Below, in pieces: positions 593-54,500 of a stretch of DNA of 64,000 bases. Source of the stretch: an uncultured Rhodospirillaceae bacterium (GTDB lineage: Bacteria > Pseudomonadota > Alphaproteobacteria > Rhodospirillales > UBA2165); assembly GCA_913020445.1 (NCBI GenBank), contig CAJWAR010000016.1:1-64000 (forward strand), read 5' to 3'. A program made the position numbers and the translations under genes. How positions within the stretch are numbered: the first letter of the stretch is position 1; each line of letters starts with the position of its first letter. The notes below the pieces were generated by a model. That model saw nothing but the letters and a program-made list of their open reading frames with translations. It was not told where the DNA came from and searched no databases.

Positions 593-2760
<2,168 letters not shown>

Positions 2761-3459
2761 ATGATCACGATTAGAAAAAGTGAAGATCGCGGCTTAGCGG
2801 AAATGGATTGGCTCCATAGCCAACACACGTTCTCCTTTGCCGATTATAGTGACCCTGAGCAAATGGGATTTGGTAATCTCCGGGTGATCAATGAAGATCA
2901 AATTCAGCCCGGCACTGGATTTGGTACTCATGGTCATCGCGATATGGAGATTGTCTCCTATATTCTGGCAGGCGAGCTTGCTCATAAGGATGACATGGGC
3001 AACGGCTCGGTTATCCGGCCGGGCGAAATTCAGCGTATGAGCGCTGGTACCGGCGTACGCCATAGCGAGCACAATCCGTCGGAAGATACCCGCAATCGTT
3101 TTTTCCAAATCTGGATATTGCCCGAAAAAGGAGGCATTGAGCCGGGTTACGAACAAAAAGAAATCCCTGCAGGGGCGCGTGAGGGCAAGTTATTTCTCGT
3201 GGGATCGCCTGATGGCCGCGGCGACAGCGTTACCATCCACCAAGACGTTGAGCTTTATGCCAGCATTCTGTCTGACGGCGACAACGTGACCCATGAAGTG
3301 GCCCCAGGGCACGGTGTTTGGGTCCAATTAGCGTCGGGTGCCATTGACGTGAATGGCACTGCCATGGCGGTTGGTGATGGCGCCGCAATTACCGAAGAAT
3401 CTATTCTCGACATTTCAGCTTCTGAACAGAGCGAATTTCTGCTTTTCGATCTCGGCTGA
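2761..3459 (+). CDS. Pirin family bicupin protein
   Basis: A 232-residue pirin of the YhhW type, a cytoplasmic metal-binding bicupin. The four first-cupin metal ligands are present: H57 and H59 in GTHGHRDME, and H101 and E103 in RHSEHN. Bacterial YhhW can oxidise quercetin in vitro, but the natural substrate is not known, and pirins have also been described as redox-sensing regulators. The ATG follows the tgt stop with no gap and has GGAGAG just upstream, so it is co-transcribed with queA-tgt. Nothing in the context explains a link to queuosine. Confidence 0.92.
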   Translation: MITIRKSEDRGLAEMDWLHSQHTFSFADYSDPEQMGFGNLRVINEDQIQPGTGFGTHGHRDMEIVSYILAGELAHKDDMGNGSVIRPGEIQRMSAGTGVRHSEHNPSEDTRNRFFQIWILPEKGGIEPGYEQKEIPAGAREGKLFLVGSPDGRGDSVTIHQDVELYASILSDGDNVTHEVAPGHGVWVQLASGAIDVNGTAMAVGDGAAITEESILDISASEQSEFLLFDLG

Positions 3460-3539
3460 ATTATTGAATGTTTAACCTTTGCCGCGTAAGTGATACCTAA
3501 CAATAAAATTGAATTGGTGGACCGAATGGTTTTTGCGGC

Positions 3540-4514
3540 ATGATGTATTTTCTCGTAATCGGCGGCTTTGTTCTGCTCCTGGTTGGGGCAGAAATTATGC
3601 TGCGCGGCGCGGTTGGTCTGGCGGAAAAATTCGGCATTTCAAAACTCGTTGTCGGTATGACCGTAGTTGCCTTTGGCACTTCTGCTCCTGAATTACTTGT
3701 TTCATTAAATGCGGCCTTGTCCGGGTCTTCAGGTCTGGCGATCGGTAATGTCGTCGGCAGCAATGTCGCCAACATTTTGCTGGTCCTGGGTGTTGCCGGT
3801 CTGCTGATGCCGATTGCCAATGAACCGGGTGCGCTCAAGCGGGATGGCTGGATGCTGCTGGTCGGCACTGGGCTTTTTATGGCGCTCACCTATCGGGGAG
3901 AGATTGATCTAATTGGTGGTTTAGTGCTGCTTGTCTATTTCACCGGCTTTCTTGTGTATTCTTATATGCGCGAAAAACAGGGCGCCGATGCGGCCGGCGA
4001 AATGTACGAACACGAAGTTGATGATATTGAAGGCGTGCCGCATAGCCTATTGAAAATAATGACTTATTTGGTGATTGGCTTTGCCGGATTAATTTATGGC
4101 GCCGATATTCTGGTCGAAGGTGGCGTCGCCATTGCGCGAACTTTCGGCGTCGACGAAGCGGTCATCGGGTTGACGGTTATTGCCTTTGGAACCTCATTAC
4201 CGGAACTGGCGGCATCGGTTGTCGCGGCGATCCGTAAACACGCCGACGTCGCTGTCGGCAATGTCGTCGGCAGCAACATCTTTAACGTTGTCGGCATCGT
4301 CGGTGTCGTTGCAGTGATTACACCGATGGAAATTCCGGCGCGGGTGGTTAATTTTGATATTTGGATTATGGCGGCAGCAACGTTGATCCTGATGCCCTAT
4401 ATGATTGGCCGCCGCGAGCAGCTTGGCCGCCTCGAAGCCGGCTTGTTCTTCGCCGCTTATCTCATTTATATCGCCGCTATTGGTTATGGGGTCGAGACTC
4501 TAATTCCTGCATAG
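3540..4514 (+). CDS. Calcium/sodium antiporter, CaCA family (YrbG-like)
   Basis: A 324-residue inner-membrane cation antiporter with about ten hydrophobic segments arranged as two inverted halves. The two alpha-repeat signatures are plain: GTSAPELLVS near residues 48-57 with VVGSNVANI near 75, and GTSLPELAAS near 218-227 with VVGSNIFNV near 244. These carry the acidic and polar residues that bind Ca2+/Na+ in the family. A central acidic loop (EMYEHEVDDIEG, near 155) separates the halves. Two ATG codons stand in tandem at 3540 and 3543. The true substrate (Ca, Na, K or H) cannot be told from sequence. Confidence 0.92.
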   Translation: MMYFLVIGGFVLLLVGAEIMLRGAVGLAEKFGISKLVVGMTVVAFGTSAPELLVSLNAALSGSSGLAIGNVVGSNVANILLVLGVAGLLMPIANEPGALKRDGWMLLVGTGLFMALTYRGEIDLIGGLVLLVYFTGFLVYSYMREKQGADAAGEMYEHEVDDIEGVPHSLLKIMTYLVIGFAGLIYGADILVEGGVAIARTFGVDEAVIGLTVIAFGTSLPELAASVVAAIRKHADVAVGNVVGSNIFNVVGIVGVVAVITPMEIPARVVNFDIWIMAAATLILMPYMIGRREQLGRLEAGLFFAAYLIYIAAIGYGVETLIPA

Positions 4515-4564
4515 CTTTTTCGTTCGGGCTTGCCATCTCGGGGATGATCTCTCATTCTCTGCTC

Positions 4565-5335
4565 ATGAATGATGGTTCAACCGGCACAGTACTTGTCACC
4601 GGCGGCGCCAAACGGATCGGCCGCGAGATTGCTTTTGCCTTGGCCGAAGACGGTTGGCAAGTGGCAGTGCATTACAACGACTCCTCCGTGGATGCCGACA
4701 AAGTCGTGCAGGAAATTTCAGCTGCCGGCGGAACAGCAATTTCCCTGCCGGCGGACCTTACCGATGAGTCAGCCGTGGCAGCGATGATACCGGCGATCGC
4801 TGACCAGCTTGGCCCGGTTACCGGCGTCGTCAATAATGCGTCCATTTTCGAGGAAGATAGCGTTTTAAGTGCGACAAAACAGACCTGGGACAGCCATATG
4901 GCGGTTAATTTACGGGCGCCGTTCCTATTAATGCAAAGTCTGGCAGAAAATCTGCCGTCAAACGAAAAAGCCAATATTATCAATATTATAGACCAGAGAG
5001 TCGAGAACCTAACACCCCATTTTACGTCCTATACGGTGAGTAAATCAGCGCTTTGGACGTTGACTCAGACGGCGGCGGCGGCGCTTGCGCCAAACATTCG
5101 GGTAAACGCCATCGGGCCCGGTCCAACCTTACCCTCAACGCGCCAATCGGATGATCAATTTGAACGCCAAATCGAATTGACGCCCTTGCAAATTCAGGTC
5201 GACCCCAAAGAAATTTCTGCGGCAGTGAGATTTATCCTTGCCACGTCCTCAATGACAGGGCAATTGTTGTCTTTAGATTCTGGCCAGCATCTCGGCTGGG
5301 CCCAGCCCGGCCAAACAAGATTACCTGATGAGTAA
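4565..5335 (+). CDS. Short-chain dehydrogenase, FolM/pteridine-reductase-like
   Basis: A Rossmann-fold SDR of about 256 residues. The nucleotide loop reads TGGAKRIG, the TGxxxRxG form typical of FolM and pteridine reductase PTR1 rather than the TGxxxGxG of most SDRs. At the catalytic serine position it has Asp (NIIDQR) followed by YTVSK, again as in FolM/PTR1. It sits directly upstream of folB, so a dihydromonapterin or dihydrofolate reductase role in pterin metabolism is a reasonable inference. The start is uncertain: ATG 4565 gives a normal short N-terminus, and ATG 4544 is an alternative. No dedicated Shine-Dalgarno is obvious. Confidence 0.85.
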   Translation: MNDGSTGTVLVTGGAKRIGREIAFALAEDGWQVAVHYNDSSVDADKVVQEISAAGGTAISLPADLTDESAVAAMIPAIADQLGPVTGVVNNASIFEEDSVLSATKQTWDSHMAVNLRAPFLLMQSLAENLPSNEKANIINIIDQRVENLTPHFTSYTVSKSALWTLTQTAAAALAPNIRVNAIGPGPTLPSTRQSDDQFERQIELTPLQIQVDPKEISAAVRFILATSSMTGQLLSLDSGQHLGWAQPGQTRLPDE

Positions 5336-35078: not shown

Positions 35079-35801
35079 TTATTCTGCTGCCTCTTTCGGT
35101 TCGCTGCCGCCACCGATTTTGTTTCTAAAATTAGCCCAATCAGCTTTGAGGTGGGCGATGGTGATCATTGGCAGTGCGATCAGGAGATCCCAGAGCGCAT
35201 CCCAGCCACCGCGCAAGACCACCGGGATCATAATCCAGGGCGCTGCTGTAATAATCGCCATATATTCCTTGGTATGGAGCTTGTCGCGGTTGGCGAGCAC
35301 TTTGTCGATATTTTTTGGGAAGGCCCAATTACAGCGGTAGATCACCTTGCCGTCCGGGCTGATGACATAGACCATATTTGGCAGCTCGCCATAGGCTTTG
35401 TGCATTTCGCCGTCCAGATTATCGATCAGGATTTTGCGCGGCTCACCGTAGAACTCGCGAAGTTTTTCCGCCATTTCCAGTTTTTGCTGATCGCTTTCAT
35501 GGGGGCCGAGGCGGGCGCCGGGATGGGCTTCCCGTACATAGATCAACAGAAACTCGACATCCGGATATTTGGCCTGAAGCTTTTTGATGCCCGAGATGTT
35601 TTTGACATACATCGAGCAGGTGATAGAGCCGGTTTCCAGCACCACCCACTTGCCGCGATATTGTTCGAGCGACACTTCCTTGCCGTCTTGGTCCCGGACC
35701 GTGAAGTCTTCGGCAATCTCACCGGCCTTGGCGCCTGGAAAAACCCCAAGCTCGTATTCCGACATTTTATAGCGTTTGTAGTTGTAGGTGGTCTTGGCCA
35801 T
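35079..35801 (-). CDS. Deiodinase-like thioredoxin-fold (redoxin) protein
   Basis: A 240-residue protein with a redoxin core (about 26-170). The active-site region ETGSITCSMYVKN near 61 resembles the iodothyronine-deiodinase/redoxin loop, with Cys where deiodinases have selenocysteine. Later blocks are LLIYVREAHPGARLGPH near 84 and NMVYVISPDGKVIYRC near 147. The C-terminal 60 residues hold a hydrophobic stretch (IITAAPWIMIPVVL) that may sit in the membrane. Function is unknown; peroxidase or reductase activity is inference. It converges on the CoA-transferase. Confidence 0.8.
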   Translation of the reverse strand: MAKTTYNYKRYKMSEYELGVFPGAKAGEIAEDFTVRDQDGKEVSLEQYRGKWVVLETGSITCSMYVKNISGIKKLQAKYPDVEFLLIYVREAHPGARLGPHESDQQKLEMAEKLREFYGEPRKILIDNLDGEMHKAYGELPNMVYVISPDGKVIYRCNWAFPKNIDKVLANRDKLHTKEYMAIITAAPWIMIPVVLRGGWDALWDLLIALPMITIAHLKADWANFRNKIGGGSEPKEAAE

Positions 35802-35908
35802 TTAGAAATTCCCGAAAAGATTTTTTTCCTTATATCAGAAAAAAAGGCGAGTGATAGGCCCGCGGGGATTAACCTATGGTCACGTTTGGGTGAAGGTAGG
35901 GGTATGGA

Positions 35909-36583
35909 TTATTTGTTCTGGCCAAATTTTCGGATGGTTTCCGTAAGCAAATGAACATTTGTAGAAGGATTGCCTCCTGGGTCGCGTTCATCGCGCCTAT
36001 TACGGATAGACAACCTGCCCCGTCGAACTGCATCGTTATAGTTAGGTTTTATTAATTCATACGAAAACATTTTATTTCTTCGTGGATCATATTTCTGATC
36101 GTGCGAATTGTATTGCCGCCCTGCATGACGAGTAGAAATGTGAGCATCCTGATCTTGAAAATGAAAAAGACCCCATAGTTCGAAGCATGGATTGGAAATA
36201 CCCAATTTTATGCCATTCGCTCGGGCTAATTGTTTAGCAGTGTTAGTTCGATCAGCGTCATGTTCATCATCGAATAAACACCAAACCTGATCGTATGCAA
36301 TGTAACTGTCACCCAGCTCTTCGGCTTCTTTTATCGCTTCATTTATTTTATCTATCGCCGTTTCCACGAGAGTTTGTGGGTCCGTTCCTAACCCGATAGA
36401 TTTCACGTCTACCAGTCCATTTCGAACGTCGGGATCGATGCTAAAGTTATTAATATAGTTAGGTTCAGTTCTGGTGCCTTCGCATATCACCAATATACGA
36501 GGAATAGGTTCTCGTGATGGACGGCTACGCTGCCGCGACTTTCTTTTTCTTCGGCTTTCTTTTTTTCTTCTTGGGGCCATCAA
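35909..36583 (-). CDS. RloB-like protein (Toprim-type partner of RloA)
   Basis: A 224-residue protein of the RloB family. Visible are ILVICEGTRTEPNYIN near 30 (a Toprim-like acidic Glu motif), VWCLFDDEHDAD near 100 (the DxD-type motif), and SNPCFELWGLFHF near 131, all RloB hallmarks. RloB proteins occur beside AAA-family ATPases and are the second component of AbiL-type phage defence. The first 25 residues are Arg/Lys-rich. Its start overlaps rloA by 59 bp. DNA here is clearly AT-rich compared with neighbours. Confidence 0.88.
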   Translation of the reverse strand: MMAPRRKKESRRKRKSRQRSRPSREPIPRILVICEGTRTEPNYINNFSIDPDVRNGLVDVKSIGLGTDPQTLVETAIDKINEAIKEAEELGDSYIAYDQVWCLFDDEHDADRTNTAKQLARANGIKLGISNPCFELWGLFHFQDQDAHISTRHAGRQYNSHDQKYDPRRNKMFSYELIKPNYNDAVRRGRLSIRNRRDERDPGGNPSTNVHLLTETIRKFGQNK

Positions 36584-37886
36584 ATATTTCTAATTGATTT
36601 AATTTCTCGAATTCTCCAAGGAATGGTATAGCACCAAAGCGCCCTTGCAAATAGCCGCGTTCCAAATTTTCAGTGTCGCGTGGTTTAAAGTCTGTTAGGG
36701 GGTACAAATGGCTGGCACCTTTTTGGTCTTTTTCAGTAAACCAAATCTCATCACGTCTTAAATTGCCAGCTCCCAAGATATTTGCACTGTGTGTTGTAAA
36801 CATTAATTGGGCACTATTTGTATTAATTTTCTTTGAGGTGAATAAACGTACAAGATTATTTGCGATATGAGGATGCAAACTTCTCTCAATCTCATCTATT
36901 ATTAAAAGAGAACCGGTACTTAAAGTTGATGCTATTGATCCAATTAAGGAGAAATATTCTCGCGTGCCATTTGACTCTTCCGATATCTCCAAAATAAAAT
37001 TTCTACTTTTATTTCCAGTACTATGCTCGAACAAAACTTTGTATTCTGGAAAATCTATACCATTTTCTGGAAATTTAAATTTGTCATCGTTATCTACGCC
37101 AAAACTCCTCAGTGCATTCGAAATATTAGCGTATTGTTCTTGGCTAATTTTGTTTTCTCTCTTTTCTACTCTAATTCCCGAGATGCCAAAATCCGCCGCC
37201 TTAAGTAATTCCGAAACGGGTATGTCTTCCCCATTTTCTTGAATATTCATCGATGTAGTTCTAATCCTTAGTTCTCTATCTTCCTCAGATGCAAAATTAA
37301 AATTGCTCATAAACCAGTTGGAAATAGACAAAAGTAACTCATGATTGTTCTGAGAAGCAGTAGACAGGAATAAACTTCCAGACCCTGTTATTTTTCCAAT
37401 TGTATTGTTTGGGCCTTTAAGGTCTCTACCAAACTTAAAAGTCGATTTTTTACCTACATTTCTTTCAAATAAAACCTTCTTTTTTGTGTTTGGGTAGGAA
37501 TATAACCACTCTTCAATAAATTTGATTTTGGTGATAACAAATCCATATTGATATCTTACATTTTTAAATATGAACTCTATTTCAAAGTAGGATGGCTTTT
37601 TTGATGACCCACCCCCCAAATATGGATGTACGGGCAGAGGGGATCCTTCTTTCCAATCGGAATAGGATTCCATAATTGCTTTTATCATATATTTGAGTGC
37701 CGCAATTAAATTTGATTTGCCCGAGGCATTTGCCCCGTAAACCGCTGCAATGGGCAAAATCCCGTTTTTAAATCCTGGGCATTTCAGCACATAGGAATCG
37801 TTATTTTTTATCGGCGAGGCGACAAAGGATAGCTCCTGATCATCCTTGAAGGAGCGATAATTACCTGTGCGGAACGAAATTAACAT
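36525..37886 (-). CDS. RloA-like AAA ATPase (abortive-infection type)
   Basis: A 453-residue ABC/SMC-like ATPase of the AAA_15/AAA_21 type. The N-terminus (ISFRTGNYRSFKDDQELSF) leads to a Walker A YGANASGKSN near 46-55. The C-terminal half has Walker B LLIIDEIERSLHP near 325 and the His switch FTTHSANIL near 365, with a coil-like insert between them. The tail is Lys-rich (KKKKRKPKKKK). I chose ATG 37886; a GTG at 37910 is possible. With the RloB gene it forms a two-gene unit resembling AbiL, related in logic to other ATPase-Toprim defence pairs. AT-rich composition suggests recent transfer. Confidence 0.88.
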   Translation of the reverse strand: MLISFRTGNYRSFKDDQELSFVASPIKNNDSYVLKCPGFKNGILPIAAVYGANASGKSNLIAALKYMIKAIMESYSDWKEGSPLPVHPYLGGGSSKKPSYFEIEFIFKNVRYQYGFVITKIKFIEEWLYSYPNTKKKVLFERNVGKKSTFKFGRDLKGPNNTIGKITGSGSLFLSTASQNNHELLLSISNWFMSNFNFASEEDRELRIRTTSMNIQENGEDIPVSELLKAADFGISGIRVEKRENKISQEQYANISNALRSFGVDNDDKFKFPENGIDFPEYKVLFEHSTGNKSRNFILEISEESNGTREYFSLIGSIASTLSTGSLLIIDEIERSLHPHIANNLVRLFTSKKINTNSAQLMFTTHSANILGAGNLRRDEIWFTEKDQKGASHLYPLTDFKPRDTENLERGYLQGRFGAIPFLGEFEKLNQLEIFDGPKKKKRKPKKKKVAAA

Positions 37887-38038
37887 GTCTAATATATACC
37901 TATTTTGCACACTTAAACGCGCAAAACCCTAATATTTTACTAAATAGTGGAGAAAAACAGGACTTTACGCAACGATTTTGTTACTAGATAGTTTAAGTAG
38001 TGAGGAAATAGGTCTTATGCAACTAAAAAAGTTAGCGC

Positions 38039-40351: not shown

Positions 40352-40440
40352 TTTTTCTTCTTTGTCTACTTGCGAATAACCCAACTCAATTAATAGTCAC
40401 GTATCATCCTAATTGAAATTAGGTGATTCGCCAATTTAGT

Positions 40441-40752
40441 GGAGGGCTTCTGTTGCCAGGTGCCCTCCGAACCCCGTGGTAGGTTAGCTGTTAAGCTGCT
40501 ACCGCAAATGCTTCATTATCATTAGCATTTGTAAAGTTAGCCCGATAACGGTGGTACAATGCCGGGCAAAAACTTTGCTTTTACTACGCACGTCGATCCT
40601 GTTTCGCCCCCATAACGGCCCGATAAACTCCAGAAAATTATCATCTAACTCCCTGGATTACCGGGAAATTTTGGTGGAGGCGCCGGGCACTGCCCCCGGG
40701 TCCGTTACGCTTATTCTACAAAGCGTTTATCGCCATAGCCGGTAAACCGGCA
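40441..40752 (-). ncRNA. ssrA: tmRNA, two-piece circularly permuted form (ssrA)
   Basis: Read on the minus strand. The acceptor piece comes first, about 40672-40752: GGACCCGGGGGCAGTGCCC (T-arm-like) and then GCGCCTCCACCA with encoded CCA at 40674-40672. An internal spacer (40671-40612) follows, then the coding piece starting GGGGGCGAAACAGGATCGAC at 40611. Its GGGGGCG pairs with CGCCTCC of the acceptor. The tag frame reads A-N-D-N-E-A-F-A-V-A-A-stop. The piece ends with a GGAGGGC...GCCCTCC hairpin at 40468-40441. TATATT at 40763-40758 can serve as the -10 box. Function: rescue of stalled ribosomes and degradation tagging. End points are approximate. Confidence 0.95.
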
Positions 40753-40914
40753 AATTCAATATAGTCCTATCGGAGGCTTATTGAAAGGGTACAGTCAACG
40801 TGTTTCTGTGATGATGAATGTCGATATATCGCGGCTTCGATTCAAGTCTTTGATCCGTTAGGCGCAAGCGGGTAAAGTGCAGCGGAATATGATTCAAATT
40901 AGGAACGCCCCTCC

Positions 40915-53375: not shown

Positions 53376-54500
53376 GTGAGTAATTTATTCAACATAAATG
53401 ATTCGAAGAAATTTTTTTCTTTCAATTTTATCGGCGATGAGACTTACATCGAAGATATTCGAGCGAAAATTAGCAATGCTTTCTTATTCATTGTTTCTTT
53501 TTTGTTGATACCAGCAGTCGCTGGTCTAATTTATCGCGGCATAGATATTGGCTGGAAAACCGTTCAAGTTTCAACCTTGGCGATTATGGTTTTTTGGTGG
53601 CTGGTTGCCCTGTTTCGCAATAAGGTATCTCACCAAGTTAGATCCTACGTCACAGTCACCTGCCTTTATTGTATTTCAACAACTGGGTTGATTAATTTGG
53701 GTCTGCTCAGTATGGGCATACCCGGCTATATTGCGTGCTGTATATTAACCGCAATTTTTCTTGGTGTAGATAAATCCCTTGTTGCCGCAGCAATTTGTTT
53801 CGGCAGTATCGTTGCTATTGGCTATGGCATCTCATCGGAAATTATCCCAATCACCATCAATGCTGATATTTTTAATATGAGTAAAGGTGCCTGGACAGCT
53901 ACCTCTATCATATTTTTTGTTGTCATGGGTTCGTTGATTCTTTGTCTTGCCGGCTTTACCGGAGCCCTAATGTCCCTGATTGGCAAAGTACAAGAACAAA
54001 GCGCCGAAATAGTGGAAAGTCACGATCGCCTGGAAGAATTGGTTAACGAAAGAACCGGGGAACTGACCAGAGAAATCGAAGTCCGGAAGGCGCGTGAAAA
54101 AGAAATCGAACAGAGTGAAGAGCGGTTTAAAAGTTTTACCGAGATTGCCGCAGACAGATATTGGGAGACCGATGAAAATCATAATATTTCATTTGCTCCT
54201 GTATTGACCAAGCAAACCAATAAACTGGGCATTGAAGTGATTGGCAAAAAGGCGTGGGAAACCGAATTGGTACTGTCTGATGAAGACAAAAAATCGTTGA
54301 TTGAAAAATTTGAGAGTAAAGAAGACTTTAAAGGTCTGCAGATATGCTGGCGATTGCCGACAGGAGAAAATTTATATCGTCGATTGTCAGGTGTGCCGTT
54401 TCGAGACAGCAACGGTAAGTTCGCGGGATTTAGATTAATTGGTATTGTGGAATCTGCTGATAGCATGCGAAGCGATATTCCTGAAGGCCAAATTTCCTAA
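53376..54500 (+). CDS. Membrane PAS sensor protein without output domain
   Basis: A 374-residue protein with GTG start. Five or six hydrophobic segments span about 33-200, a coiled coil runs over about 205-250 (ESHDRLEELVNERTGELTREIE), and a single PAS-like domain spans about 255-365 (FTEIAADRYWETDENHNISF). It stops after the PAS domain: no histidine-kinase, GGDEF or EAL domain follows. The PAS motif closely resembles that of the kinase at 60475 (AAADRFWET). It may be a truncated kinase or an accessory sensor. Confidence 0.75.
   Translation: MSNLFNINDSKKFFSFNFIGDETYIEDIRAKISNAFLFIVSFLLIPAVAGLIYRGIDIGWKTVQVSTLAIMVFWWLVALFRNKVSHQVRSYVTVTCLYCISTTGLINLGLLSMGIPGYIACCILTAIFLGVDKSLVAAAICFGSIVAIGYGISSEIIPITINADIFNMSKGAWTATSIIFFVVMGSLILCLAGFTGALMSLIGKVQEQSAEIVESHDRLEELVNERTGELTREIEVRKAREKEIEQSEERFKSFTEIAADRYWETDENHNISFAPVLTKQTNKLGIEVIGKKAWETELVLSDEDKKSLIEKFESKEDFKGLQICWRLPTGENLYRRLSGVPFRDSNGKFAGFRLIGIVESADSMRSDIPEGQIS

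Follow-up and report, generated by a model that had tools for sequence, protein, structure and literature searches.

What is a pair of AT-rich genes doing among the housekeeping genes of an uncultured Rhodospirillaceae bacterium? In the window (the whole stretch of DNA analysed, 64,000 nucleotides long), a reading made from the sequence only had pointed to an AAA ATPase gene and an rloB gene, co-directional and overlapping, and had proposed an AbiL-type defence system. Both frames were found on the minus strand: abiLi (rloA-like), encoding an ABC/AAA ATPase of 453 aa (36525..37886, ATG at 37886, stop at 36525), and abiLii, or rloB, encoding a predicted Toprim-type nuclease of 223 aa (35909..36580, stop at 35909). 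Each is single-copy in the source genome. Our best explanation, to which we give a probability of about 0.65, is that the two genes form a horizontally acquired AbiL-type abortive-infection cassette, similar to a toxin-antitoxin system.

Composition and insertion site

The cassette extends approximately from 35897 to 38037, as judged from three congeners (L003, L004 and L005) and from composition, its lower edge being estimated to ∼15 bp. The sharp difference in composition from the flanks, noted at first reading, is confirmed: with 38.1% GC against a window mean of 50.2% (sd 3.1), the cassette has the most extreme composition of the window, no other 2.1 kb being as AT-rich, and the GC3 values of its genes, 0.346 and 0.356, are the two lowest among 49 long ORFs (mean 0.549). 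The third-lowest GC3 (0.403) was found at 53376-54500 (plus strand), in a gene with a weak MASE11 membrane-domain match, located directly downstream of a polysaccharide-biosynthesis (flippase-like) gene; this is possibly another acquired segment.

The neighbours of the cassette are the fumarase gene on one side, and a deiodinase/redoxin-like gene on the other. The latter, initially taken for a redoxin gene (35079-35801, minus strand), has T4_deiodinase as best Pfam match (8.1e-12), then AhpC-TSA, and contains a Cys-containing SITCSMY motif; its product is a bacterial deiodinase-like protein, whose gene adjoins fumarase in the genus. The fumarase-redoxin interval had been singled out as a place where relatives might carry something else, and they hold other genes there, or nothing. 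A glyoxalase-family gene on the opposite strand is present in L004, a 118-aa lipoprotein-like frame in L005, and the interval measures ∼126 bp, partly unsequenced, in L006, while L003 has neither the cassette nor the redoxin gene. The L005 interval also contains a palindromic intergenic repeat (CGTCATCCTGGACTTGATCCAGGATCC ... TCTGGCCTTCGCCAGAATGACG, at 3160-3260).

Both flanks of the cassette align to L004, with the fumarase stop at one edge and the redoxin leader at the other. This leader includes a terminator-like hairpin with its T-run, beyond the cassette edge (35840..35863, minus strand), which belongs to the old site since L004 has the hairpin without the cassette. Among the 24 genomes of the family that were searched, RloB was found in the source genome only, and at the level of the class it was detected in 18 of 385 genomes. 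Because RloB is absent from the other family genomes and the contents of the site vary, we consider the pair as a recently gained two-gene unit; judged from sequence, the cassette is horizontally acquired. The closest RloB among the matches listed, with 49% identity, comes from an Acidobacteria bin, and a tree of AbiLi proteins places ours, with weak support, near acidobacterial and planctomycete proteins and not with the proteobacterial group. A DNA comparison with E. coli genomes gave no match.

The edges of the cassette were inspected for mobile-element hallmarks, and displayed short chance-like repeats only, a convincing att site being absent. A permuted two-piece alphaproteobacterial tmRNA gene is found at 40438-40790 (minus strand), adjoining sspB; SspB acts on tmRNA-tagged proteins. 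This tmRNA gene was discarded as the insertion point because 2.4 kb, including sspB and fumarase, separate it from the cassette.

Assignment to AbiL and pairing of the two genes

Searches with defence models gave clear answers for both proteins. Against PADLOC, the ATPase matched the AbiLi model PDLC02335 at 2.9e-100, at the top of 84 matching models, and RloB matched a sole model, AbiLii PDLC02337, at 1.6e-26. The Pfam matches are AAA_21 for AbiLi (4.4e-41), and the RloB family, above cut-off and without any other family, for RloB (6.5e-34). The genes have the PADLOC layout for AbiL, adjacent and co-directional with the ATPase first, and the order is the same in relatives. The two models give lower scores to a Lactococcus prophage pair that carries an annotation of abortive phage resistance (4.4e-76 for AbiLi, 4.7e-18 for AbiLii); its AbiLi is 28% identical to ours over most of the length, and its AbiLii has acidic and aromatic positions in common with our RloB. 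Klebsiella provides two further cases of the ATPase-then-RloB order, one on a phage and one on a mobilizable plasmid of 5.2 kb. Together with these annotated AbiL-like pairs and the patchy, variable insertion site, the PADLOC and Pfam profiles bear out the AbiL-type layout proposed at first, and we regard the identification of the cassette as AbiL as nearly certain. It is an ordinary further member of an already described family, not a variant. Like the Lactococcus type, it keeps the acidic motif set, and AbiL pairs are known from prophages and plasmids; it differs from it by an identity of ∼25-28% to the Lactococcus prophage pair, a stand-alone chromosomal site, a longer overlap and a Lys-rich AbiLi tail of its own.

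To ask how strictly the two genes go together, relatives were collected by RloB patterns alone. The genome scan gave 80 loci among the matches listed, with at least 516 relatives confirmed, and the viral scan gave 16 loci. In 91 of these 96 loci, AbiLi was directly upstream of RloB and at the expected spacing; as for the 5 exceptions, one locus (L112) starts at a contig end, and four have broken or mis-assigned frames. Pairwise distances of AbiLi and RloB were strongly correlated over 78 pairs (Mantel r = 0.879), a value reached by none of 2000 permutations (≤0.13). This placement and this correlation indicate that AbiLi and RloB work together. No third neighbour was conserved, as no Pfam family occurred in more than 2 of the 119 flanking ORFs; a third partner or a defence-island setting was rejected, the flanks being heterogeneous with few matches to defence models by raw count. 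Given the strict pairing, the correlated distances and the absence of a recurring third gene, AbiLi-RloB is a self-contained unit. In some genomes, AbiL-like pairs occur two or three times, in divergent form (L067 and L078 in one MAG, L023 and L040 in G061, L025, L039 and L043 in G396). On the 5.2-kb mobilizable ColRNAI plasmid (L143, NC_016979.1), the ATPase and RloB pair, at 2728-4696 with an 8-bp overlap, takes up much of the molecule, and the plasmid recurs across many records of Klebsiella and E. coli.

Could such a pair be a classical toxin-antitoxin, or addiction, module, maintaining itself through an AbiLi that merely neutralises RloB, with phage defence as an incidental effect? Pairs of an AAA protein with an RloB or Toprim protein have indeed been placed in a toxin-antitoxin network, with neutralisation by the AAA protein tested (PMC10440598), and carriage by small mobilizable Klebsiella plasmids is in keeping with that role. 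However, Lactococcus AbiL was described as a phage abortive infection system, as cited in that same paper, and cargo copies reside in a Lactococcus prophage, beside the lysin gene, and in a Klebsiella Peduoviridae phage. We therefore hold pure addiction to be rather unlikely.

Membership in three other known systems was also considered. PARIS resembles the abortive-infection cassette in having a separate ABC ATPase and a Toprim effector, but the AriA profile matches AbiLi at generic AAA_21 coordinates, and RloB matches AbiLii alone and no AriB model (PADLOC, Pfam), so that PARIS was set aside. OLD and GajA of Gabija combine a Rad50-like ATPase with Toprim chemistry, and 6nk8 and 6p74 are among our structural matches; OLD, however, carries the two parts on a single polypeptide, and the partner of GajA is a helicase. 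The present cassette consists of two separate genes, with fumarase and the deiodinase/redoxin-like gene as neighbours, and both the GajA fusion and the GajB helicase are absent, which excludes Gabija. Finally, PtuA, the ATPase of Septu and of the retron PtuA-PtuB pair, is the closest solved sequence relative of AbiLi, but its partner PtuB is an HNH nuclease, and RloB, the partner here, has no HNH match in Pfam.

Motifs, predicted structures and the gene overlap

The Walker A, Walker B and His switch attributed to the ATPase are all present. In AbiLi, Walker A (GANASGKS, aa 51-58), the signature (ESNGT, 304-308), Walker B (LLIIDE, 327-332) and the switch His366 are invariant or nearly so across 80 relatives. 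The predicted structure (pLDDT 90.2) is similar to Rad50 (Z 20.9), SMC heads and PtuA (Z ∼18), and OLD 6p74 came out among its Foldseek matches.

For RloB, nine residues are invariant in 82 aligned sequences (E34, G35, E39, D104, S129, E134, W136, H140 and A184), and E34, E39, D104, E106 and E134 are putative metal ligands. In the predicted structure (mean pLDDT 93.9), E34 comes directly after strand 1 (28-33), D104 ends strand 3 (98-104), and E134 begins the helix after strand 4. The model supports a Toprim order of strands and motifs, with a conserved Glu following strand 1 and acids of the DxD type at strand 3, the second of which would be E106. The Toprim region of Burkholderia OLD (6nk8) aligned to the model over 151 residues, more than any other entry listed, with Z 8.2, a score tied (Z ∼8) with unrelated Rossmann-like folds including lumazine synthases. 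Foldseek gave no match below 0.001 with the RloB model, and the RloB profile gave chance matches only against solved structures. As solved structures provide no sequence match, and unrelated Rossmann-like folds score as well as Toprim, the nuclease activity is called predicted here. HHPred links RloB to OLD Toprim (PMC10440598), and the metal ligands of Burkholderia OLD are E400/E404, D455/D457 and T506/E508 (PMC6755086). The RloB residues E34/E39, D104/E106 and S129/E134 follow the same order, from which we infer a putative correspondence. The Toprim-like acidic motifs of the sequence-only reading are thus upheld by topology and motif order, and left undecided by the fold match.

At the second motif, RloB reads FDDEH, in contrast to the FDVDxH of most relatives, the second acid, E106, being shifted by one residue. 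Such a shift, like the long overlap, might be taken as a sign of degeneration in a decayed or silent acquisition, all the more as the region preceding abiLi showed no promoter-like site, and rloB lacks a clear ribosome-binding site. Yet both frames are intact, the invariant residues are all kept, the models are of high confidence, and a DxE pair is also found elsewhere, as YDQEH in a plasmid RloB and as FDVE in an actinobacterial/acidobacterial branch, which makes decay very improbable.

The overlap (36525..36580, minus strand) was first given as 59 bp. This holds if rloB starts at TTG 36583; from the adjacent candidate, ATG 36580, it is 56 bp. The rloB gene is in the +1 frame relative to abiLi, and its next in-frame standard start codon is inside the conserved core, so the overlap is unavoidable with standard starts. 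In relatives, overlaps of 1-23 bp are common, one actinobacterial locus has 56 bp, and a single case out of 84 has a shorter distance between the AbiLi stop and the RloB core.

Within the overlap, one frame encodes the basic leader of RloB, and another the Lys-rich tail of AbiLi. The two charged ends noticed at first, in different frames, do exist, but only that of RloB is a feature of the family: the leader is basic across 83 relatives (median 35% K/R, median net charge +8), and hence a family trait. AbiLi proteins of relatives usually end ∼15 residues past a conserved GA[IV]P motif, and a tail with a net charge of +3 or more was found in 0 of 83, so that the Lys-rich tail is confined to this locus. 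The tail is modelled as disordered, with block means of confidence dropping from 69 to 38. Translated in the AbiLi frame, the RloB leader DNA gives exactly GPKKKKRKPKKKKVAAA. The tail is best explained as a by-product of the overlap, AbiLi having been extended into the A-rich DNA of the RloB leader, and its earlier interpretation as a nucleic-acid-binding feature falls. A programmed frameshift or fusion was rejected too: the frames of RloB relative to AbiLi are distributed as 38, 37 and 16 among 91 relatives, and just 6 of these 91 have an A/T run of at least 7 near the junction. We find it very doubtful that the tail is now functional, for instance in tethering AbiLi to nucleic acid or to RloB, or that slippage on the A7 run yields some AbiLi-RloB fusion.

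Proposed mode of action

By analogy with better-known systems, the abortive-infection cassette would probably act as a sensor ATPase releasing a Toprim nuclease. AbiLi would assemble into an ATP-dependent oligomer, sensing a phage-derived signal, and would hold RloB (AbiLii) inactive before infection. Upon infection, RloB would be released or activated, and would cleave nucleic acid through a two-metal Toprim site, leading to growth arrest of both host and phage. The substrate may be tRNA, which AriB cuts, or DNA, the target of OLD and GajA, and the basic N-terminal leader of RloB probably helps to bind nucleic acid or the ATPase. The control of a Toprim nuclease by a sensor ATPase is proposed on the basis of PARIS, where a hexamer of the AriA ATPase sequesters AriB, a Toprim tRNase (PMC12409363), of the toxin-antitoxin network mentioned above, and of structural likeness. 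The ATPase motifs and the predicted acidic site of RloB are intact in the cassette.

A different outcome would be expected if AbiLi and RloB formed a constitutive ATPase-Toprim restriction complex that, like OLD or Gabija, cleaves the DNA of the phage directly and involves no abortive infection. The best nuclease likeness of the RloB model is indeed to the Toprim region of a DNA-cutting OLD enzyme, and AbiLi resembles Rad50 and OLD heads. However, PARIS, the closest two-gene system with a separate ATPase and Toprim protein, works by effector release, and the name AbiL itself derives from abortive infection; we judge the restriction complex improbable.

In this bacterium, AbiL is a bare two-gene unit dropped among housekeeping genes, with no mobility genes visible. 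The origin of the AbiLi tail shows that overprinting can yield a striking, probably neutral charged tail, and calls for caution when inferring function from sequence. In the literature searched, we found no mechanistic study of AbiL itself, and no report of its substrate or trigger, so any member of the family is useful for testing, and the present cassette supplies candidate residues for it.
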